Source of the DNA: Pirellulales bacterium
Lineage (GTDB): Bacteria; Planctomycetota; Planctomycetia; Pirellulales; Lacipirellulaceae
NCBI GenBank assembly: GCA_019636345.1
Contig: JAHBXQ010000004.1
Span: forward strand, 372,001 to 436,000
DNA length: 64,000 nt
Direction of reading: 5' to 3'
Under the pieces are notes generated by a model that was given only the letters and a program-made list of their open reading frames with translations, was not told the origin of the DNA and searched no databases. A program made the translations under genes and the position numbers. Of the stretch, positions 1,125-24,083 are shown piece after piece. Within the stretch, counting starts at the first letter, position 1. Every line of letters starts with the position of its first letter.

Positions 1125-1471
1125 GGCTGTCAACAATGCATGCGGGAAGGAGAAAACCAGCGGGCCCGTCAGGGTACCCCAAGCGTCAGTCGCCCAAAAG
1201 GGGCGACTGGGCGTCGCGTGCCCGAGGCCGCTGGTTCGTCTGGTGCGGGGCGCCATGGCCGCAGTGCGAAGCGCCGCGGTCTGGCGAATTCCCGCAGGAA
1301 ACAAGCTTGTTCGCGTCGGCCGCCCTCCGTTCGCGTGCCGCCCCGGCGGGCTCTGTTGAACATCCCCCTCGTTCCGACAGTTCGCCTCCCGGGTCGTGCC
1401 ATTCAGCCGGCTGTGATACGATCTTGGTTTGGTTTCGCCCTTTGTTTACTAGCTGCGCTAGGATGCCCGTC
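1125..1471. other. Intergenic region between divergent genes
   Basis: About 350 bp separate the start codons of dapL and the SEC-C gene, so the promoters of both genes should lie here. Open frames cross it on both strands, but they have no recognisable protein, no good ribosome-binding site and look like GC-driven background. No RNA gene or repeat was recognised. Confidence 0.5.
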
Positions 1472-3583
1472 ATGAGCGTCGACCCCTACGCCCCGTGCCC
1501 GTGCGGCAGCGGCAAGAAGCTGAAATTTTGCTGCTCGGACTTGGTTCACGAGATCGAGAAGATCGACAAGCTCATCCACGCCGATCAGCCGCGGGCGGCG
1601 CTGGCGCGGTGCGAGCAACTCTTGACCAAGGAGCCGAACCGGGCGTCGCTCCTCGATCTGGCGGCGATGCTCAAGTTGTCGCTCGAAGACGTCGACGGAG
1701 CCGCCGCGATCGTGCAGACGTTTCTGGCCGCGCACCCCGACAGCCCCACGGCCCACGCCCAAGCGGCGCTTGTGGCGACGGCGCGCGAGGATGCGGCCAC
1801 GGCCGTCGGCGAACTGCAGAGTGCGTTCGAACATTGCGGCAACGACCTGCCGCAGCGGGTGTTCGAGGCGATCGGCGCCGTCGGGCACGCGCTCTTGCTG
1901 GCTGGCGATCTCGTCGCGGCTCGAGCTCACCTGCTGATGTACGCCGGACTGGCGCCGAACGACGACAACGAAGCCGTCGAATTGCTGCTTCGGCTGAACC
2001 TGCAATCAGGCTTGCCGCTGTTGTTGCGTGAGCCGCTGACGCTCGTCAAAAAGCTCGCCGATCCGCCGAAGCCGATCGCGGCCGACTTCGCCGCAGCGAT
2101 GGAACTTGCCCAACGCGGCCGATGGCGGCAAGCCGCGGCGGCGTTCGAGACGTTGCGGGACCAGATCGGTTCGCTGCCGGCGGTCGTTTACAACCTGGCT
2201 CTCTGTCGCGGGTGGAGCGGCGACAAAGAGGGGTTCGTCGATGCACTGCATGACTACGCGGCGCTCGACGTGCCGTACGACGACGCCGTCGAGGCTGAAG
2301 CCCTCGCCCAATTGGTGCTGCCGCGCGAGGACGCGGCGCTCATCGAGACGCTGTGCCTGTCCTATCATGTTGAGGACGCCGACGTTGCCGCCGAGCGGTT
2401 GCTGGCGGACAAACGGGTCGAGATCTACCCCGTAGATCCGGAAACGTTCAAGAGCGACGAAGACACGCCCCCCCGCGAAACCTACATCCTTCTCGATCGT
2501 CCCGTCGCGACCGCCGGCGTCGACATCGAACTGGGGCAGATTCCCAACGTGCTGGCGTTTCTGTCGTTGTACGGCAAGCGGACCGATCGTCCCGCTCAGC
2601 TCAAGGTCACCACCGACGACGATCAGCTGTTCACCGTCGTCACGGGACTGGTGACGGAGATCGTCGGCGACGCGCTCGGTTCGATCGACTCGCGCGAAAC
2701 CCTGGCTGAGAAGTCGGCGAGCGAGGAAGCGCTCAGTTGGCGATGGCGGCTGCCGGACGACACGCCCTCGAAGCACCGGCGACAACTCCTCGCCGAACGT
2801 CGGCGACGGGCGATTCTCGACGATTGGACCTCGGCGCCCTTGGGGAATCTGGGCGACCTGTCGCCCGAGGCGGCCGCCAGCCAGCCGGAGTTGCAGGTCC
2901 GGCTGGCCGCCGCGGTGCTTATCATCGAGCAGGCCTCGGCCGACCCGGCCGAGCGCTCTCTGTTCGACGAACTGCGTAGCCGACTCGGCCTGCCCGCCGC
3001 AGAGCCGATCGATCCCGCGACAATTGATTGGCAAGCTCTCCCCATGGTCCGCGTGCCGCGGTTGGAACTTGCCGCACTGGACGCGGAGTCGCTCAGCGGC
3101 CTGCTCGATCGCTGCACGCTGGCCGGGGCGCCGATCGCCACGCTGGCGGTGGCCACGGAACTCGCTGGGCGCGATGAACCGCTTGCCGTTCGCCGGCGGG
3201 CTTTCCAGCAACTCGTGCGCAAGGTTTCGCACCCCGACGCCGCGATCCCGTGGATCGAGCAGGCCAAAACGCTCGCCGCGAGCGAAGGAGCGAAGCTCGG
3301 CGAATGGTTGCTGATGGAGCTGCAGGTCCACATGGAACGGGGCGATTTCGACGGGATTCAAGCCGCGCTGCGGGCGATCGGCGACCGTGAGGCCGCCGAG
3401 CCCGAAGCGGCTCAAGCTGCGTATCGCATCCTCTATCAATCAGGTTTGATCGCCCCGCCGGGCGAACGCACCGACGTGGCCGAAGCGCCCCTTCCGGTCG
3501 CCAGCGGTTCGAAGCTATGGACCCCCGACGGCGACGCTCCCGCCCCCGCCGGACCGGCCAAATCGGCGATCTGGACCCCGTAG
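1472..3583 (+). CDS. Large SEC-C motif protein with TPR-like repeats
   Basis: Protein of about 703 residues beginning with a SEC-C zinc-binding motif: C9, C11, C20 and C21 in YAPCPCGSGKKLKFCC, the module also found at the SecA C-terminus. Residues from about 30 to 200 are alanine- and leucine-rich helical repeats resembling TPRs. The rest is acidic and helical without a recognisable catalytic motif. The frame is open well upstream, but the start at 1472 has AGGA eight bases ahead and puts the SEC-C motif at the N-terminus, where it normally sits; 1463 is the alternative. Function is unknown. SEC-C plus TPR suggests a protein-interaction or chaperone-adaptor role, which is inference. Confidence 0.75.
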   Translation: MSVDPYAPCPCGSGKKLKFCCSDLVHEIEKIDKLIHADQPRAALARCEQLLTKEPNRASLLDLAAMLKLSLEDVDGAAAIVQTFLAAHPDSPTAHAQAALVATAREDAATAVGELQSAFEHCGNDLPQRVFEAIGAVGHALLLAGDLVAARAHLLMYAGLAPNDDNEAVELLLRLNLQSGLPLLLREPLTLVKKLADPPKPIAADFAAAMELAQRGRWRQAAAAFETLRDQIGSLPAVVYNLALCRGWSGDKEGFVDALHDYAALDVPYDDAVEAEALAQLVLPREDAALIETLCLSYHVEDADVAAERLLADKRVEIYPVDPETFKSDEDTPPRETYILLDRPVATAGVDIELGQIPNVLAFLSLYGKRTDRPAQLKVTTDDDQLFTVVTGLVTEIVGDALGSIDSRETLAEKSASEEALSWRWRLPDDTPSKHRRQLLAERRRRAILDDWTSAPLGNLGDLSPEAAASQPELQVRLAAAVLIIEQASADPAERSLFDELRSRLGLPAAEPIDPATIDWQALPMVRVPRLELAALDAESLSGLLDRCTLAGAPIATLAVATELAGRDEPLAVRRRAFQQLVRKVSHPDAAIPWIEQAKTLAASEGAKLGEWLLMELQVHMERGDFDGIQAALRAIGDREAAEPEAAQAAYRILYQSGLIAPPGERTDVAEAPLPVASGSKLWTPDGDAPAPAGPAKSAIWTP

Positions 3584-15004: not shown

Positions 15005-17281
15005 TCAGCCGCGGTTTCCACGGCGATCCAACAGCGCCAGAAACGCCGGTACGAGCACGGTTCGCACCACGAACGTGTCGAGCATGATCCCCAGCGACAG
15101 GGCGAGCCCCATCTCCGCCATGCCGCGCAGCGTGCCGGTGAGCATCGACGCGAACGTCCCGGCCATGATGACGCCGCAACTGGTGATGATTCCCCCGGTC
15201 TCGACGAACGCCCGGCGGAGGCCTTCGAGGGGACCGTGGGCGCGTTGCTCCTCGAACACCCGGGTGACGAGGTAGATGTTGTAGTCCTGCCCCACGGCAG
15301 TGAGGATGACGAACAGGAACACGGGGACCTTCCAATCGAGCCCCGGGTGGGCCGCGCCGTACCATGCCCCCAGCACGATCTGCACGATCCCCAGCGTGAC
15401 GAAATAGCTGAGCACCACGGTGCTGATGAGGTATAGGCACGCAAGCGGGCGGCGCAACAGGGCCAAGAGCACGGCGAACACCGCCCCGGCCACGAGCCAT
15501 TGGATCCGGGTGCGATCGCTGAGCGTCACGCGCTCGAGATCGCGGATCCCGGAGCTGGGGCCCGACAACTCGAACTGGGCCTCGTGCCAGTCGGAACCGG
15601 GGTCCGCGGCCAATGCGGCCAAGGCGCGTTCGATCGTCCCGACCAGGGCCACAGCATCGGTCGAGAAGGGCCCATGGGCGAGCACGACGAACAGCCGCGT
15701 GACGCGCCCTGCCGCGTCGCCGGTTTGCGACACGAACGTCGCCTCGGCCAAGGGGCTGCCTGCCACCGCGAGCGCGGCGAGCCCCTGGCTCGAAAAGACG
15801 CTCACCTCGCCGGCGCGCTCCCCGGCGGGGCGGTAGATGCTGCGTACGCGCTCGACGCCGGGGAGATCCTCCAGCGTCTTGGCGAGACTCGCCACCTTAA
15901 TTCGGCCGTCGACCCCCGCCAAATCGGCCTCGGGACGCTTGGCCACGACGACCAGGGGACCGACCTCCCCCGGCAAAAAGTGCTGCTGCAACAGTTCGGT
16001 GCCGCGCCGGCTGACGCTGTCGGACGAGAGCTCGCCGAAGATGTCGTACGTGACCCGGACGTTCCAGCCGATCGCCGCGAGCGGCGCCGCGACGAGGGCG
16101 CTGGCCGCCAGCACGCGGACCGGTCGACGAAGCACGGGGTCGGCGATCCGCTGCCAGAATCGCCGCTGCCAACTCTGCCGGCGGTCGCTGCCGCGATTGG
16201 CCCCGACCGCGGCCCCGAGCCGGGTGGCGAGCAGCGCCGGGGCGAGCGTGACGCATACGGCCAGCGCGACCAGCAGGCTCGCGGCGATGGCGGGACCGCT
16301 GTAGGCGAATTTGCCGAATTCGGCAAAGGCCATCATCGCCAGCCCGACGACGGTGGTCAGCGCGCTGGCGGAGAGGGCTAATCCGACGTGGCCGAGCGCC
16401 TCGGCCGCCGCGGCGACTTGCTCGCGTCCGGCGGCGCGCAGTTCGCGGAATCGCGAAATCAAAAACAGGCAGTAATCGGTACCGGCGCCGAACAGCAGCA
16501 CGACGACGAAGATCCGCGTCGTCGTGAAGACCCGCACCTCGGGCCAGCCGGGGCGACTCTGCGACCACGCGGCCGCGAGGGCCAAGAGATCGAGCGACGC
16601 GACGACCGCGACGGCGATCGCCGTCAGCGGCGCCGCGGCCAGCGGCAGCGAGCGGTAGATCAGCAGCAGCGCTCCGACGACCATCGCCACGGTGGCCCGG
16701 TCGGTATTGCGGAGGCTCTGCGCCGCTGCGGCAAGCATGTCTCCGCCGATCGCGGCTGACCCCGAGACGCCGACGACCAGCCCCGCGGGGCGCTGGTCGT
16801 CGATCTCCTCCAGGGCTTGGGTCGTCGCCTTGAGCACCCGCATGTTGTCGACCGCCATCAGGTCGTTGGTCAGGCGGACGACGACGCGCTGGGCGTTTCC
16901 GGCGGGGCTCTTGAGCATTGGCCCGACGACCGGGGTCGACACGGTCCACGGCTGATCGACCAGCGGCAAGTTCGGGATGGCCGCCACCTGACGAGCGGCG
17001 ACATGCAGAAACTGGCGATCCTCGGGGGTCATCTCGCCATCGGGACGGGCGAACACAAGCACCAGTTGGCTTCGCGAGGCGTCTTCGGGGAACGCCTCGG
17101 CTGAGAGCGCCGCCGCCCGGGCAGTGGTCGTCGAGGGGGGGAGCTGATCGAGATCGCCGTCGTTGGCGACTTGGCTCCAAGGGGGCGCCGCGAGCCGAAG
17201 CGCCGCCACCATCGCCAGCCAGGCGCCGATCACCAGCCAACGGCGGCGAGCGACGAACGATCCGAGGTGAAAGAAATCCAT
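15005..17281 (-). CDS. MMPL/RND-superfamily transporter
   Basis: 758-residue membrane protein with the MMPL layout: one N-terminal helix (WLVIGAWLAMVAALRL), a periplasmic domain, five to six helices including VLLFGAGTDYCLFLISRFRE, then a second helix, second periplasmic domain and second helix bundle with VGQDYNIYLVTRVFEE. The two GTDYCLFL/GQDYNIYL motifs mark the internal duplication and carry the Asp-Tyr pairs that relay protons in MmpL proteins. It probably exports a lipid or hydrophobic product across the cytoplasmic membrane; the substrate is not deducible. It is a monocistronic-looking gene. A second, longer exporter of this superfamily is at 30033. Confidence 0.88.
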   Translation of the reverse strand: MDFFHLGSFVARRRWLVIGAWLAMVAALRLAAPPWSQVANDGDLDQLPPSTTTARAAALSAEAFPEDASRSQLVLVFARPDGEMTPEDRQFLHVAARQVAAIPNLPLVDQPWTVSTPVVGPMLKSPAGNAQRVVVRLTNDLMAVDNMRVLKATTQALEEIDDQRPAGLVVGVSGSAAIGGDMLAAAAQSLRNTDRATVAMVVGALLLIYRSLPLAAAPLTAIAVAVVASLDLLALAAAWSQSRPGWPEVRVFTTTRIFVVVLLFGAGTDYCLFLISRFRELRAAGREQVAAAAEALGHVGLALSASALTTVVGLAMMAFAEFGKFAYSGPAIAASLLVALAVCVTLAPALLATRLGAAVGANRGSDRRQSWQRRFWQRIADPVLRRPVRVLAASALVAAPLAAIGWNVRVTYDIFGELSSDSVSRRGTELLQQHFLPGEVGPLVVVAKRPEADLAGVDGRIKVASLAKTLEDLPGVERVRSIYRPAGERAGEVSVFSSQGLAALAVAGSPLAEATFVSQTGDAAGRVTRLFVVLAHGPFSTDAVALVGTIERALAALAADPGSDWHEAQFELSGPSSGIRDLERVTLSDRTRIQWLVAGAVFAVLLALLRRPLACLYLISTVVLSYFVTLGIVQIVLGAWYGAAHPGLDWKVPVFLFVILTAVGQDYNIYLVTRVFEEQRAHGPLEGLRRAFVETGGIITSCGVIMAGTFASMLTGTLRGMAEMGLALSLGIMLDTFVVRTVLVPAFLALLDRRGNRG

Positions 17282-17498: not shown

Positions 17499-19949
17499 CT
17501 ACTTGTCGTCGAGATCGATGTCGAATTCGTCGAGATTCAGATCGAGCGAATCGGACGTCGCGCCAAGATCCTCCGGCACAGCGTCGACGACGGTTGACGC
17601 GGCGGGCGCCGGCGCCTCGGCGATCTTGGCCGACTTGCCCTTGTCCTTGGCGGGCTTGGCGGCCTTGGGCGGCAGGGCCTTCTTGACGTTGGCCTGCTGC
17701 ATGCGAATCAACCGCCGGTCGGCACGCACCGGCACTCCGTTGATTACGGCGCCGAGCAATCGGATGCCGAGGTTGTCGAGCAGTTCGGCCGCCTTGTGGA
17801 TCTTCGGCAGCTCGCTGTGATCGCGGAGGACCGTGAGGATGGCGCTGTCGACGAGCCGTCCGAGCGCCAGGCCGTCGGCGACCTGCAGGATCGGAGGACC
17901 GTCGATGATGATGAAGTCGAACTGCGTCCGCAGTTGGTCGACGATCGGCTCCAACTGATCGGTCGCCAGATTGTGGACGGCCTGCGAATCGACCACGCCG
18001 GCGGTGAGCAGGTACAGGCTCTCGGTCTGCGTAGGACGCACCGCATCGGAGAGATCGATCTCCGAGCGGAGCACCTCGCTGAAGCCGCCGTCGAGCGGCA
18101 AACCGAACAAGGCGTGGAGCGAAGGCGCCCGCAGGTCGCTGTCGACCAGCAGGGTACGACGACCGGCCCGGGCCAAGCTGAGAGCCAAGTTGGCGGCCAC
18201 AGTCGTGGCGCCTTCCATCGTCTCGGGGCTGGTCACCAGTATGATTTGCCGACGCATTTTCGTCGAGGCGTGCATCAAGGTCGCCCGCACGCTGTCGACT
18301 GACTCGGCCACTTGGGCCGAGACGAGGTTGCCGCCAGCCAGCGACTTGCGGGCCGTGGTCGCGGGGAGCACGCCCAAGACGCGAATCCCCAGACCTTCGT
18401 CGACGTCGGAGGGACCGTTGAGTCGTCGCTTGCGGAAATCGGTCAACGCGACCCCGTAGCAGGTGAGGGCCAACCCGGCGAGGGCGCCGACGGCGACGAT
18501 CGCAATCCGTTCATAGGTGTTGATGTTCGGCTGGGCCATGGCTCTCTGCATGATGCGCACTTTTTCGTGCCGATTCGCGTCGCCGGCGGCCGCTTCGCGA
18601 GCTCTCTGCTCGATGTTGAGCTGCTGAAGGCGGAACTCCAGTTCCTTGACGACTTCCTGGTCGTTGGCAATCTCGTTCTTCAGAATCTCGATCGCCGGGT
18701 CGCGGGAGCCGAGCGTCATGAGCGTTTCCTCGGAGGTCCGCAGCTTCTCCTCGAGTTCCTGCTTCTGCACGCTGAGACGCTCGACGACCGCTTTGTACTG
18801 GACCATGGCCGATTGAAAGCCGATGTTCGGCATGCGGGCGTATTTTTCTCGCAGCTCGCGCTCGGCTTTCGCCCGATACTGCTGTTCCATCATGGCGATC
18901 TGTTCGCGGGACTGCTGCAGTTGCTGAACTGCGGGCGAATTCTTGCGCTTTTCTTGCGCTTGTCGCGCCATGATATTGCGATCGATTTCGAACAACTGTT
19001 TGCGATAGTCGACGATCATCGGGTCTCGATCCATCGTTTCGCTGACGGCCGCCTCGACGGCCGCTTGGCTGTTCGCTTCGCGAACGGCGATCTCTTTCAT
19101 GACCTCGTTGTTGAGCAGCTCTTTGTCGACTCTGGCCAATTCGGCGCGAACAAAGTCGATCGTGCGCATCAATTGCATTTGTTCGATCTCGGCCGTGCTT
19201 GAATCCCCGCCTTGAGCGACGTCGATTTTGCGCTTCAGTTGGGTCATTTTGTCGCTCAGTCGTTTCTGCAGGTCGCGCTGGACCTGGGCGAGGTCGTCGT
19301 AGGAGCGGAGTCGCTCGATGCGTTCCTTGATGACGACTTCTTCGTAGTAGGCGTCGACGATCGCCTGGACGACGGTTTCCATTTCCTTGGCGTCTTCGGA
19401 ACCGTCGTATCGCACCTCCATCACGTTGCCGGAGTTCGGGAAGCTGACCTTGAGCTCCTCAAGCATCCACTGCACGGGATCAGGTTGGTTCTGTTGAACG
19501 GCCGCAAGCTCGGTCATCGACTTCGGAGCGAAGGCCTGTTGCAGGACGAGCGAGCTCTTGACCAGCGTGAGCTGGGCGAATTGTTCCTGCTTGAGCTGCT
19601 CGGAGTTCAGGCGGACTTGCTTCTCGAACGGATTGTTCGAATCCCCGAACTGCATCATCAGATAGGCCGTCGTTCGAGACGAAGCCGGGAAGAGAAACCA
19701 GAGGGCGATGGCGACCAGAGTCGCGACCAGAGAGCCCAACAGCAGGGCCGTCAACCAGCGGCGTCGCAACCCGTTGACGAGCCACGTCTGATTGAACCCG
19801 CCGTACAAGAGATCGTTGGCCGGCGAAGGCGTCATGCCATAACCGGCCGGCAGGGGAAACGACTGCTCGGCGGTCGTCATCGCGCCCGCACGACCGGGAG
19901 AAGGCGTCAATGCGTCGGGGTGCGACAGGTCGGTGTGGGATGTTGCCAT
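17499..19949 (-). CDS. Wzc-like polysaccharide co-polymerase with degenerate BY-kinase domain
   Basis: 816 residues. The N-terminal half is a polysaccharide co-polymerase: a transmembrane helix near residue 70 (WLTALLLGSLVATLVAIALWF), a long periplasmic coiled coil (about 200-490) and a second helix near 500. The C-terminal cytoplasmic domain has the bacterial tyrosine-kinase layout: Walker A' (LLVDSDLRAP) and Walker B (DFIIIDGPP). However, the Walker A sequence reads ETMEGATTVAANLAL, with Ala at residue 581 (codon 18207-18209) where catalysis needs Lys. The tail after about residue 750 is Lys/Ala- then Asp-rich and has no tyrosine cluster. It probably controls exopolysaccharide chain assembly without autokinase activity; the loss of activity is inferred from sequence only. 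Confidence 0.85.
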   Translation of the reverse strand: MATSHTDLSHPDALTPSPGRAGAMTTAEQSFPLPAGYGMTPSPANDLLYGGFNQTWLVNGLRRRWLTALLLGSLVATLVAIALWFLFPASSRTTAYLMMQFGDSNNPFEKQVRLNSEQLKQEQFAQLTLVKSSLVLQQAFAPKSMTELAAVQQNQPDPVQWMLEELKVSFPNSGNVMEVRYDGSEDAKEMETVVQAIVDAYYEEVVIKERIERLRSYDDLAQVQRDLQKRLSDKMTQLKRKIDVAQGGDSSTAEIEQMQLMRTIDFVRAELARVDKELLNNEVMKEIAVREANSQAAVEAAVSETMDRDPMIVDYRKQLFEIDRNIMARQAQEKRKNSPAVQQLQQSREQIAMMEQQYRAKAERELREKYARMPNIGFQSAMVQYKAVVERLSVQKQELEEKLRTSEETLMTLGSRDPAIEILKNEIANDQEVVKELEFRLQQLNIEQRAREAAAGDANRHEKVRIMQRAMAQPNINTYERIAIVAVGALAGLALTCYGVALTDFRKRRLNGPSDVDEGLGIRVLGVLPATTARKSLAGGNLVSAQVAESVDSVRATLMHASTKMRRQIILVTSPETMEGATTVAANLALSLARAGRRTLLVDSDLRAPSLHALFGLPLDGGFSEVLRSEIDLSDAVRPTQTESLYLLTAGVVDSQAVHNLATDQLEPIVDQLRTQFDFIIIDGPPILQVADGLALGRLVDSAILTVLRDHSELPKIHKAAELLDNLGIRLLGAVINGVPVRADRRLIRMQQANVKKALPPKAAKPAKDKGKSAKIAEAPAPAASTVVDAVPEDLGATSDSLDLNLDEFDIDLDDK

Positions 19950-20351: not shown

Positions 20352-21302
20352 TCAGGCGGTGGCGGCTCCGGCGGCGAAGTGGTCGTCCGCCTCCATCGGG
20401 ATCGTCAACCGCGACAGGATTGCCAGTTCCAAGGCAAGCAGCCCCATGCCGATGACCATCATCGCGTAACCGGCGCCATCGTGAATGACAGTATGCAGAG
20501 TCCCTTCCTGCTGGGCGGAGGGGAACGCGATGTAAAGCAGTCCGGTCGCCACGATTCGGATGATATTGCTGGCAAGCGCGATGGGGATGGCGCTGACGAG
20601 AATCGCCAGACGGTCCCACCAGGGGCGATCGACGAGCAGGGCCATGGCGACGCACATGGCGCCGAACACGGTGAGCATCCGCAGGCCGCTGCACGCCTCG
20701 GCGACGATGAGGGGCTGCTCCAGCGAGTCGATTTTGATGCTTTGGCCGATCTTGACGGCGCCGACGCCCAAGGTCTGGAGAATGACGGTGCTTGCCCAGC
20801 TTGCCCAGCTGAGCAATTTGATAAGAAAGGTGTTCTCGACCTGGTAGGGCAGGGGAAACATGAAGACCAGGAAGCCGCACGCCGGCCCGGCCCACTTCAG
20901 CAGCGAGGTTCCCCCCACCATGAGGCAGATGCCCAAGAGAACGCTAATGAAGGAGAGCCGATCGAAGAAGTTCACGTTGTCCCAGGAGGCCAAGAGGCGC
21001 ACTCCGAGCGAGACCGCGACCACGGCCAGCCCGATCCACCGCTGGGACGGTTCGGTTTCCGCGAGCGGGCGTCGCCGCTCCCAGAACAGATAGCAGGCGA
21101 TCAGCGGGACGATCCAGCCGTGGGAATAGAGGTCGTTCGACCAGTAGGACGAAGCGAACTTCAGCATGTTCCCGTAGCAGATCACCGTCAGCGCAACGAG
21201 ACCGCCGAACGCGTACCAGCCGAGGCGGGCTTCTTGCTCATCAAGGGGAATGTCGTCGGACCAGTCCAAATCCGCCGCATTGCGGCCAGCGCCAAAGCTC
21301 AT
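20352..21302 (-). CDS. Exosortase (PEP-CTERM sorting transpeptidase)
   Basis: Multi-pass membrane cysteine protease/transpeptidase that processes proteins with C-terminal PEP-CTERM signals, usually linked to exopolysaccharide production. The catalytic set is visible in the 316-residue form: C204 in AEACSGLR, R249 in NIIRI and histidines 270/274 in LHTVIHDGAG. About eight hydrophobic helices surround them. The start at 21302 (MSFGAGRNAADL) is preferred; an ATG at 21377 would add an arginine-rich leader. It sits between the Wzc-like and Wza-like genes. A PEP-CTERM target protein is encoded at 57907. Confidence 0.88.
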   Translation of the reverse strand: MSFGAGRNAADLDWSDDIPLDEQEARLGWYAFGGLVALTVICYGNMLKFASSYWSNDLYSHGWIVPLIACYLFWERRRPLAETEPSQRWIGLAVVAVSLGVRLLASWDNVNFFDRLSFISVLLGICLMVGGTSLLKWAGPACGFLVFMFPLPYQVENTFLIKLLSWASWASTVILQTLGVGAVKIGQSIKIDSLEQPLIVAEACSGLRMLTVFGAMCVAMALLVDRPWWDRLAILVSAIPIALASNIIRIVATGLLYIAFPSAQQEGTLHTVIHDGAGYAMMVIGMGLLALELAILSRLTIPMEADDHFAAGAATA

Positions 21303-21834
21303 CGAAGGTACTCGGGGACGAGGTCGCAGGAATCGACAAGCCGCCGCAGACCAGCACGGTCGGACGGCCGACAGCAAGGGGCGCCAGCGGCGCGGCGACG
21401 GATCTGGAGAGTCTGTCGCTGAAATTGAGAATACGCGTCCTGCCCAGCGCTGTCAAACAGTTTGACGCTGCTCCTGGCGACTGCAACTTGCTTATTCATC
21501 AAGCACTTACGACGTGGCGGAACGACTGTAACGGTCCTCCCGATGACGCTGGCCACATGGCGCGAAAGCGGATGAACGGGCGACTTTTCCGGCTCGCGGC
21601 GCAAGCCAGATCGAGCGCCGCTCCGGCGCCAGCAGGGCTTGCAGCGCACGGCCGAGAGCTCCCACTTTTGCCAGCGATTTCCGCACTCCGCCCAAAGTCG
21701 GTGTTAAAGCGTGACGATTATAAGCATTGTAACCGTCGTACCGGTCCTACCGGCTGCGCGTACGTGCTTGTCGGGGAGGGGTCTCCCCGCGGCATTCGAC
21801 GCAACTCGCCAAGCACGCTAGCGAGATTCGATTC
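21303..21834. other. Divergent regulatory region of the polysaccharide block
   Basis: About 530 bp between the exosortase (minus) and Wza-like gene (plus) start codons. It contains an inverted repeat GTCAAAC-A-GTTTGAC at 21452-21466 that could be an operator, and an AT-richer stretch near 21710-21740. No protein gene was recognised. Confidence 0.4.
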
Positions 21835-22893
21835 ATGAAGGCGAACACAACGATCCACCGCGGCCTGACTCTGGCGATGTTGGCGATTCTCGCCTCGTCG
21901 ACCGGCTGCACGGCGTACATGGCGCAACGCTCGCCTGTGCCCGCCGACGTGCCGCAGCCCCCCGCCTCGAGCCCCGTGCCGCGGGAACTCGAAATGGTGA
22001 CGCTGCCGCGGTATGTCATCGAGCCCCCAGATATTCTGCTGGTCGAAGGGGTGAAGCTGGTTCCCAAGAGCCCGCACCGCATCGAGACGTTCGACGTCTT
22101 GCTCGTCCGCGTCATCGGCGCGTTTCCCGAACAACCGATCGACGACGCCTACTCCGTCGACGCCGACGGTACGGTGAATCTCGGTCCGACTTACGGCCGG
22201 GTGAAGGTCATCGATCTGACGATCGAAGAATCGGAAGACGAAATCCGCAAACAGCTCTCGAAGATTCTCAGCGACGTCGACGTCTCGGTCTCGCTGATCT
22301 CGTCCGCCGGGGCGCAGGCGATCACCGGACAGCACTTGGTGGCGATGGACGGTCGGGTGAATCTCGGGACGTACGGCTCGGTCTACGTCGCCGGCATGAC
22401 GATCGAACAATGTCGCGCAGCGATCGAGGAGAAGCTGAGCGAGAAACTGGAAGATCCTGAAATCTTCGTCGACGTTCTCGCCTACAACAGCAAGGTTTAC
22501 TACGTCATTACCCAGGGGGCCGGACTCGGCGACAACGTCGTGCGGTTCCCGATTACGGGGAACGACAAGGTGATCGACGCGGTGGCCAACTTGGGAGGCA
22601 TCTCGCAGGTGTCGTCGAAGAAGATGTGGATCGCCCGCCCCGCGCCCAACGGCGTCGGCTGCGAACAGATTTTGCCCATCGAATGGGACAAGATCTCCCA
22701 GGGCGCCGTCACGGCCACGAACTATCAACTGATGCCCAGCGATCGGTTGTATATTGCCGAGGATCGCATCACGAGCTTCAACACCATCGTGGGCAAAATC
22801 CTCAATCCGTTTGAACGAATTGTCGGTTTCGTCTCGCTTAGCACCTCGATGGGCAACCGAATTGTCCGCTTCGGCCAACCCAACACGTTCTAG
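21835..22893 (+). CDS. Wza-like polysaccharide export lipoprotein
   Basis: 352-residue outer-membrane polysaccharide export protein. A signal peptide ends in the lipobox LASSTGC with lipidated C25. A Poly_export domain follows (YVIEPPDILLVEGVKLV ... YSVDADGTVNLGPTYGRVKV), then two SLBB-like repeats (VAMDGRVNLGTYGSVYVAGMT; VYYVITQGAGLGDNVVRFPI). With the divergent Wzc-like and exosortase genes it forms a surface-polysaccharide export unit. The tail after about 300 is amphipathic and could insert in the outer membrane. Confidence 0.88.
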   Translation: MKANTTIHRGLTLAMLAILASSTGCTAYMAQRSPVPADVPQPPASSPVPRELEMVTLPRYVIEPPDILLVEGVKLVPKSPHRIETFDVLLVRVIGAFPEQPIDDAYSVDADGTVNLGPTYGRVKVIDLTIEESEDEIRKQLSKILSDVDVSVSLISSAGAQAITGQHLVAMDGRVNLGTYGSVYVAGMTIEQCRAAIEEKLSEKLEDPEIFVDVLAYNSKVYYVITQGAGLGDNVVRFPITGNDKVIDAVANLGGISQVSSKKMWIARPAPNGVGCEQILPIEWDKISQGAVTATNYQLMPSDRLYIAEDRITSFNTIVGKILNPFERIVGFVSLSTSMGNRIVRFGQPNTF

Positions 22894-23117
22894 CCTGAGT
22901 GACATTGCCGCCGACGAGCCGCGGACGGCTGCTCGTCGGCGGGCTTGATCCGGACGCCTCCTTCGTTGTTCTGACGATCCGCCAGCTTGCAGCCGGCAGA
23001 TCGCCTGGGATCGAGTCGGAGTCTGATTCGTACTTCACACTGCAACACTGCAAACGGATTTGCCGCGGCCCCGCTCCTGACCCAGCGACTTGCCGCCTTT
23101 CGGAAGGAACCCACGCT

Positions 23118-24083
23118 ATGCGACGCAAGCCGCCCCTTGGCGCTCCTCTGCGAGTTTCGTTGCTGACCTCCGGCGGCTTGGCCGTGTTGTTGGCCGGAAC
23201 GGCCGCGGCCGTGTCGAACTGCGGCCCCGCGCCGTGCGCAGCCGACGGGACATGCTTGCCGAACCGACCAAGTTGGGGTTGGTACAACACGCGTTGGCGG
23301 GCTTGGCCGGGAGAACAGCCCGGCTTGACGCCGACCCCGGCCGGCGGAGCCAAGGGGGAGGACGAATCGCCTGACTCTCTGCCCGGATTGATCCTTCCCG
23401 ATCCGACGAAAGAGGACAAAGCCGGTTCGGAGAAGACGGACCAGAAGTCCCGCGGTGGCGTCGGAGTTCCGGACGAAGGTGCGCTTCCCGATCCCGAAGC
23501 CATGCCGGAACTTGATCCCTTCAGCCAACGCGACGAGCGGGGCGCCCCTCAGGTGCAGCTCGGTTTGCCGGCGGCGCGAGGCGTGGTGACGGCCCTGCCG
23601 CACGTTTACGACGACCAGTATCCGGCGCCTTCCTACGTGCAGCCGCTGCCGGCGGTGATCGACAACCCGGCGGTCGCTCGGCCGGCGAGCAACCTCGCTC
23701 CGCTGGGAGGGCCGAATTTGAACAGCGAAGACGCTCCGCCGGCGCTGCCAGCCAGCCTGCAGAGCATGCTGCCGCAGTCGCAGCAACCTGCCGTGCCGTC
23801 GCCGGTCGCTGCCGCGGTTCCCTACGGCCGGGCGTTGTCGCCTGTGCGGCCGGCACAGCCGCAGCAACTGGCTCCGGCGGCGCCCGTCGCCTTGGGACAG
23901 CCGGCGAGCGTGACGCCGTCGCAGACGCCGATTCGGCCCGTCACGTGGGAGACCCCCGGCGGGATCGCGCTGGTCAACCCCGCAGCGGCCGTCGAGGTCG
24001 AGGCGGGAGCCGAGGGGACCAAGCGGGCGATCTACTACGAAGTCTCCGACGCCTCGCCGGATACGGCGAGTCAGACCAAGTGA
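23118..24083 (+). CDS. Secreted proline-rich protein with WGWYNTRWRAWPGE segment
   Basis: 321 residues. A signal peptide of about 35 residues (LLTSGGLAVLLAGTAAAVS) is followed by a short cysteine-containing segment (NCGPAPCAADGTCLP) and WGWYNTRWRAWPGE, a short block I recall from planctomycete secreted proteins but cannot check here. The rest is Pro/Ala/Gln-rich low complexity without a catalytic motif. The start at 23118 has GGAAGGAA about 12 bases upstream. It follows the Wza-like gene by 224 bp and ends in a strong hairpin. It is possibly a structural or surface-associated component of the same system. Confidence 0.7.
   Translation: MRRKPPLGAPLRVSLLTSGGLAVLLAGTAAAVSNCGPAPCAADGTCLPNRPSWGWYNTRWRAWPGEQPGLTPTPAGGAKGEDESPDSLPGLILPDPTKEDKAGSEKTDQKSRGGVGVPDEGALPDPEAMPELDPFSQRDERGAPQVQLGLPAARGVVTALPHVYDDQYPAPSYVQPLPAVIDNPAVARPASNLAPLGGPNLNSEDAPPALPASLQSMLPQSQQPAVPSPVAAAVPYGRALSPVRPAQPQQLAPAAPVALGQPASVTPSQTPIRPVTWETPGGIALVNPAAAVEVEAGAEGTKRAIYYEVSDASPDTASQTK

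Follow-up and report, generated by a model that had tools for sequence, protein, structure and literature searches.

The window analysed here, a DNA stretch of 64,000 nucleotides, encodes a Wzc-like protein whose kinase domain has lost the Walker A lysine, a loss common to all 40 sequences found in its family of planctomycete bacteria. On the basis of sequence and of analogy with known systems, the protein is likely to be a fused PCP-2a (Wzc-type) co-polymerase with a pseudokinase domain, working as an unphosphorylated oligomeric scaffold. That it performs no tyrosine phosphotransfer can be said with considerable assurance. We infer this loss strongly from sequence; that the protein acts as a scaffold, that it binds nucleotide and which polymer it serves are weaker inferences.

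The window protein matches TIGR01007 (eps_fam), the NCBIfam model of polysaccharide tyrosine autokinases, scoring 130 bits where the cut-off is 108.05. It stays under the curated cut-off of the XrtA-associated tyrosine autokinase TIGR03018 (107.4 versus 230.65 bits) and far under that of the Wzc equivalog NF008568 (101.4 versus 1068). Its AlphaFold2 model has a mean pLDDT of 80.8 and a pTM of 0.54, with pLDDT values of 85–95 in the blocks 551–740 of the kinase-like domain. A Foldseek search with this model returned the Wza-Wzc entry 9r64_I as best match, and ranks 1–23 are all Wzc or Wza-Wzc chains. Over its whole length the model fits Wzc loosely (TMq 0.47, rmsd 27 Å), and the kinase-like domain fits CapA1B1 with ADP-Mg at a TMt of 0.91 and an rmsd of 2.4. 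As modelled, the chain has the PCP-2a/Wzc architecture, with two predicted membrane helices, a helical periplasmic part and a C-terminal BYK fold.

Table 1 Coordinates of the co-polymerase gene, its motifs and its neighbours in the window.
Feature	Position	Strand	Basis
816-residue Wzc-like polysaccharide co-polymerase with lysine-less kinase domain	17499..19949	-	TIGR01007 match; Foldseek best match 9r64_I
First predicted membrane helix, residues 65–86	19692..19757	-	AlphaFold2 helix; hydrophobic by eye
Second predicted membrane helix, residues 478–507	18429..18518	-	AlphaFold2 helix
EX2RX2R position, residues 549–555, ESVDSVR; first Arg is Asp552	18285..18305	-	
Walker A, residues 573–585, TSPETMEGATTVA	18195..18233	-	
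Codon 581: GCC, giving Ala where the catalytic Lys is expected	18207..18209	-	
Walker A', residues 599–609, TLLVDSDLRAP, both aspartates kept	18123..18155	-	
Walker B, residues 678–687, FDFIIIDGPP	17889..17918	-	
C-terminal tail, residues 743–816, without Tyr; basic at its start, ending in the acidic LDEFDIDLDD	17502..17723	-	
MMPL-family transporter, downstream	15008..17281	-	PF03176, 1.5e-90
Exosortase, stop-to-stop frame, upstream on the same strand	20355..21452	-	PF09721, 3.4e-51
Wza-like polysaccharide export protein (Poly_export), stop-to-stop frame, divergent on the other side	21733..22890	+	PF02563, 2.4e-23
394-residue frame, found behind the Wza-like gene in many relatives (weak but repeated synteny)	22899..24080	+	

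Among the features of active BY kinases, the Walker A' and B aspartates are present in the window protein, and the GK[ST] lysine, the tyrosine-rich tail and EX2RX2R are absent. The alanine at residue 581 sits within TSPETMEGATTVAANLA, and a HMMER alignment pairs it with the methionine introduced in CapB K55M (2ved) and with the lysine of 3bfv. Asp603, Asp605 and Asp683, the aspartates of Walker A' and B, are invariant among the 37 sequences of alignment A1. Residues 549–555 correspond to what we take to be the EX2RX2R motif of the BY-kinase interface; aligned to PDB sequences, ESVDSVR of the window stands opposite EKFRGIR of CapB. The 74 tail residues from 743 to the end contain no tyrosine at all. 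The first-pass annotation, made from the letters alone, had thus read the site correctly: it described the lysine replaced by alanine with Walker A' and B kept, a tail without tyrosine cluster, and an exosortase and a Wza-like gene nearby, all of which hold (Table 1). As judged from sequence and model, the protein answers to the definition of a BY pseudokinase, namely a BYK fold that lacks both a catalytic residue and a phosphorylatable tail. The acidic end of its tail (LDLNLDEFDIDLDD, 17502–17570, minus strand) recurs in L058, L062, L064 and L192, and an acidic D/E-rich end of another form is seen in L039, L084 and L085; eight of 40 family members, the window included, carry one or the other.

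How widespread is the loss of the lysine? The family set comprises 43 genomes, of which 39 gave a match at E ≤ 1e-80; they contribute 40 sequences because G001 holds a second, divergent copy (L080). No match was obtained at this threshold in G008, G020, G060 and G063, although in G020 the contig stops within the gene and leaves an N-terminal fragment. Contig ends also truncate L078, L079 and L082, and the L194 sequence is divided between two frames. Not one of the 40 sequences has a lysine at position 581, which is occupied by Arg in 16, Cys in eight, Thr in six, Ala in five, Ser in four and Asn in one. The alignment that had been proposed as a check on the alanine therefore gives a divided answer: the alanine itself varies, with six residue types at the site, and the absence of lysine is conserved throughout. 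Close relatives carrying the lysine had been named beforehand as the observation that would overturn the first-pass reading; they were looked for and none was found, the ortholog from the same genus likewise having alanine. We reject a sequencing error or recent mutation on these grounds. Arg as an intermediate on the way from Lys to the small residues is one possibility among others: the codons at 581 are compatible with several routes, and the Arg and non-Arg groups are sisters. A MinD-type signature lysine was considered as a substitute and discarded: by eye, only L076 has a lysine ahead of the loop (at 578), and none is conserved. The second copy in G001, a genome of the same genus, lies at 1166–3118 (minus strand of L080), is highly divergent and likewise has alanine.

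Outside the family the picture is reversed. All 18 order-level sequences, which come from other families of the same order (L040–L057), keep the lysine in an EGK[ST] motif. A wider sample was drawn from a contig search with alignment A1 as query, taking the best 80 of at least 447 matches as chosen by their Walker A' and B patterns, with some contigs repeating the whole-genome set. Five of these 80 loci belong to the window's family and lack the lysine, while 73 of the 75 outside it carry it. Since the residue is missing from 40/40 family sequences and present in 73/75 sampled outside loci, chance or sequencing error is excluded as the source of the pattern. The two exceptions among these 75 are the stand-alone L164 and L110 (6001–8073, plus strand), an exosortase-linked Wzc-like protein reading EGTTT. 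As L110 clusters with the lysine-bearing L043 and L049 (support 100), it represents a second, independent loss.

In a quick tree, computed without the partial rows L078, L079 and L056, the family forms one clade (SH-aLRT 100) with a single change between lysine and no lysine, which puts one loss at the family base. Another tree, from which 12 family rows had been thinned, served to place L110 and to separate the family into an Arg and a non-Arg group, which are sisters; five sequences added later are in neither tree.

The other alterations of the protein reach further than the missing lysine. Tails without any tyrosine are found in 38 of the 40 family members, the remaining two having one each. 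Among the 18 lysine-bearing order-level sequences, seven have no tail tyrosine, four have one, two have two and five have at least four. The first arginine of EX2RX2R is an aspartate in 40/40 family and 16/18 order-level sequences, the order-level exceptions being L051 (ESVRKVA) and L044 (Asn). Beyond the family and the order-level group, this arginine is present in most kinases among the best 80 of at least 447 matches. Thin tails and the aspartate thus both occur among lysine-bearing relatives, and tail thinning and interface change are not confined to the lysine-less family. We infer that both preceded the loss of the lysine.

What happened to the site after the loss can be followed column by column, in counts made without L080 (the divergent copy with Ala), L078, L079, L056 and the five later additions. 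Across 16 non-Arg sequences residue 581 changed at least six times, a number equalled or exceeded by only 6% of the domain columns, and across 16 Arg sequences it never changed. Gly580, Thr582, Asp603, Asp605, Arg607, Pro609 and Asp683 show no change in either group. Within Walker A of the non-Arg group, residue 583 changed three times and residue 579 once, so the loop is not fully frozen. With 581 variable and those seven residues static, constraint appears to have dropped mainly at 581. The dN/dS ratio of the kinase-like domain ranges from 0.02 to 0.16 in 11 pairs, with dS high and near saturation in several of them, and is lower than that of the periplasmic domain in all nine pairs computable for both. 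Judged by these substitutions, purifying selection acts strongly on the kinase-like domain, which is not decaying.

Directly upstream and in the same orientation, 36 of the 40 family loci have an exosortase gene; if only the 37 loci that extend beyond the start of the co-polymerase gene are counted, the figure is 36/37. The four without it are L078, L079 and L082, which meet contig ends, and L080, with none in the 1.7 kb available on its 4.8-kb contig. At order level an exosortase adjoins the gene in 16/18 loci, the other two being L055, which lacks one, and L056, which runs into a contig end. Exosortase residues Cys254 and Arg299 occur in 53/53 aligned sequences and His324 in 52/53; we take these three to be the catalytic residues. 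For the frame behind the Wza-like gene (22899..24080), neither Pfam nor NCBIfam yielded a match at E 0.001, and no Wzy, flippase or glycosyltransferase was found among the 19 window frames scanned with Pfam. An MMPL transporter follows the gene in 15/24 non-Arg family loci and in none of the 16 Arg or 18 order-level loci, a few loci ending soon after the gene; because the non-Arg group is a clade, this association may reflect shared descent only. In the window's genome, at least 24 PEP-CTERM-like matches were counted with 150 of 264 candidates scored, and there are two exosortase genes. The second of these, L189 (G000:C4:18069-18827, minus strand), lies inside a 600-residue frame.

Several known systems resemble the window protein in part. 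Fused PCP-2 BY pseudokinases, among them SMc01795, Mlr8439 and VV1_2305, were described by Cuthbertson et al. as cited in PMC12004946, and like the window protein they join a co-polymerase and a catalytically degenerate BYK domain in one chain. Both fused and stand-alone pseudokinases of this class have been published before. Compared with SMc01795-type proteins as they appear there, the window's family has lost lysine and tail with Walker A' and B intact, resides in an exosortase locus and has lysine-bearing sisters. EcpK/EpsV of Myxococcus xanthus and HfsB/HfsA of Caulobacter share with it a BYK fold without phosphotransfer residues or tyrosine tail and a link to exported polysaccharide. EcpK further has a basic C-terminal helix where the window's family has a basic stretch. 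However, these pairs are stand-alone and the window protein is fused, and EcpK lacks all three Walker motifs, whereas Walker A' and B remain in the window protein. EcpK is nevertheless essential for exopolysaccharide and has been proposed to be a scaffold (PMC12004946).

The engineered counterparts are Wzc K540M (7nhr) and CapB K55M (2ved), which are altered at the position equivalent to 581 with the nucleotide site otherwise intact. They are laboratory mutants that keep the tyrosine tail, while the window protein is natural and its tail is gone. The order-level proteins L040–L057 are homologous to it over the whole length and have an exosortase beside 16 of their 18 genes, but differ in the EGK[ST] of 18/18 and the four or more tail tyrosines of 5/18. 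A description of the window's family was not found in the open-licence literature, judged by titles and the beginnings of abstracts. What is particular here is the combination of a one-residue loss, a largely frozen site, its extent over a whole family, the lysine-bearing sisters and the exosortase neighbour.

What might such a protein do? With lysine and tail gone, autophosphorylation should be impossible, and a family that is conserved yet lysine-less is probably made of scaffolds rather than enzymes, a view in which we are fairly confident by analogy. The protein would sit as an unphosphorylated oligomer, as does the engineered E. coli Wzc K540M, which is an unphosphorylated, homogeneous octamer that binds Mg-ADP (PMC8285477), and it may still hold Mg-nucleotide. 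Retained nucleotide binding is quite possible as Walker A' and B and Thr582 are intact, and the frozen Walker A' and B residues suggest that it still matters; on the sequence evidence we lean slightly towards it. Such a scaffold would organise the machinery of an exosortase-linked exopolysaccharide, namely its polymerase and its Wza-like exporter, with assembly and release set by nucleotide or partner binding instead of phosphorylation. In E. coli, the Wzc octamer comes apart when its tail is phosphorylated, and the capsule is believed to depend on cycles of phosphorylation; capsule falls drastically when the phosphatase is lost, as it does with kinase-null mutations (PMC11986026). This counts against the scaffold, since a dead version would need another release step. 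The pseudokinase co-polymerase put forward at first pass, which might control chain length without phosphotransfer, is supported in part: it fits the family-wide loss of the lysine, the tail without tyrosine, the retained fold, the purifying selection and the exosortase and export locus.

Other accounts have to be set against the scaffold. The domain might still be an active nucleotide-hydrolysing or kinase domain that works independently of the lysine, with Arg or neighbouring residues taking over and another protein, not its own tail, as target. The Walker A' and B aspartates and Thr582, static after the loss, and the Arg fixed in 16/16 members of one subclade would suit this, and the Arg in these 16 of 40 family members might retain some catalysis. 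But the Cys, Thr, Ala, Ser and Asn of the other subclade are not expected to replace a lysine, 38/40 tails lack tyrosine, and mutation of K540 abolishes phosphorylation of Wzc (PMC8285477), all of which makes an active domain unlikely. Still less probable is a pseudokinase acting in trans, forming mixed rings with the canonical kinases of the genome and modulating them as proposed for CapB1/CapB2, a role suggested for CapB1 in PMC3795738. Candidate partners exist, as L002 and L003 have GDGK[ST] and tyrosine-rich ends. However, they share only 26–27% identity with the window protein, are encoded on another contig and read ESIRTLR and EAFRTLR at the interface against ESVDSVR, and the window gene belongs to a separate exosortase locus. 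That the gene is decaying or misassembled, with the loss of the lysine as recent noise, is hardly credible: the odd motif itself and one relative with a split frame speak for it, but the loss is common to 40/40 family sequences, purifying selection is strong, and both the window and almost every full-length relative have a long, uninterrupted frame. The split relative is L194 (4387–7085, plus strand, in G065), a co-polymerase in two frames through either a frameshift or an assembly error.

The scaffold might also be seen as the end of a stepwise conversion within an exosortase-linked lineage, an account that we consider doubtful as a whole. First to go would have been the interface Arg, followed in many lines by the tyrosine tail, which left phosphotransfer pointless; the P-loop lysine would have been lost later and at least twice. 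Walker A' and B would have stayed frozen because nucleotide binding alone runs ring assembly, the acidic tail end of 8/40 members (the window among them) could stand in for a phosphorylated tail, and an autokinase would have become a nucleotide-responsive scaffold.

In the accepted model Wzc-type co-polymerases need cycles of tyrosine phosphorylation, and here a whole family appears to use the kinase-dead equivalent as its normal form. With lysine-bearing sisters beside a lysine-less family, the purpose of phosphorylation becomes testable through one-residue swaps, and the relatives offer a natural series of steps from kinase to pseudokinase.

The window's genome holds a second, stand-alone kinase-like gene, L004 (G000:C6, 1459–2253, minus strand). 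Together with eight chosen loci (L090–L097) it forms a set in which 9/9 have V, S or A instead of the Walker A lysine and miss one or more of the Walker A' aspartates, and in which 8/9 end in a P-x-W stretch, mostly rich in Arg and Lys and without tyrosine cluster. Beside L004 lies a frame that by eye resembles a kinase-less co-polymerase, and the two look like a pair of the EcpK/EpsV type. Given a stand-alone lysine-less gene in the same genome, co-polymerases that work without phosphorylation may be common among these planctomycetes.
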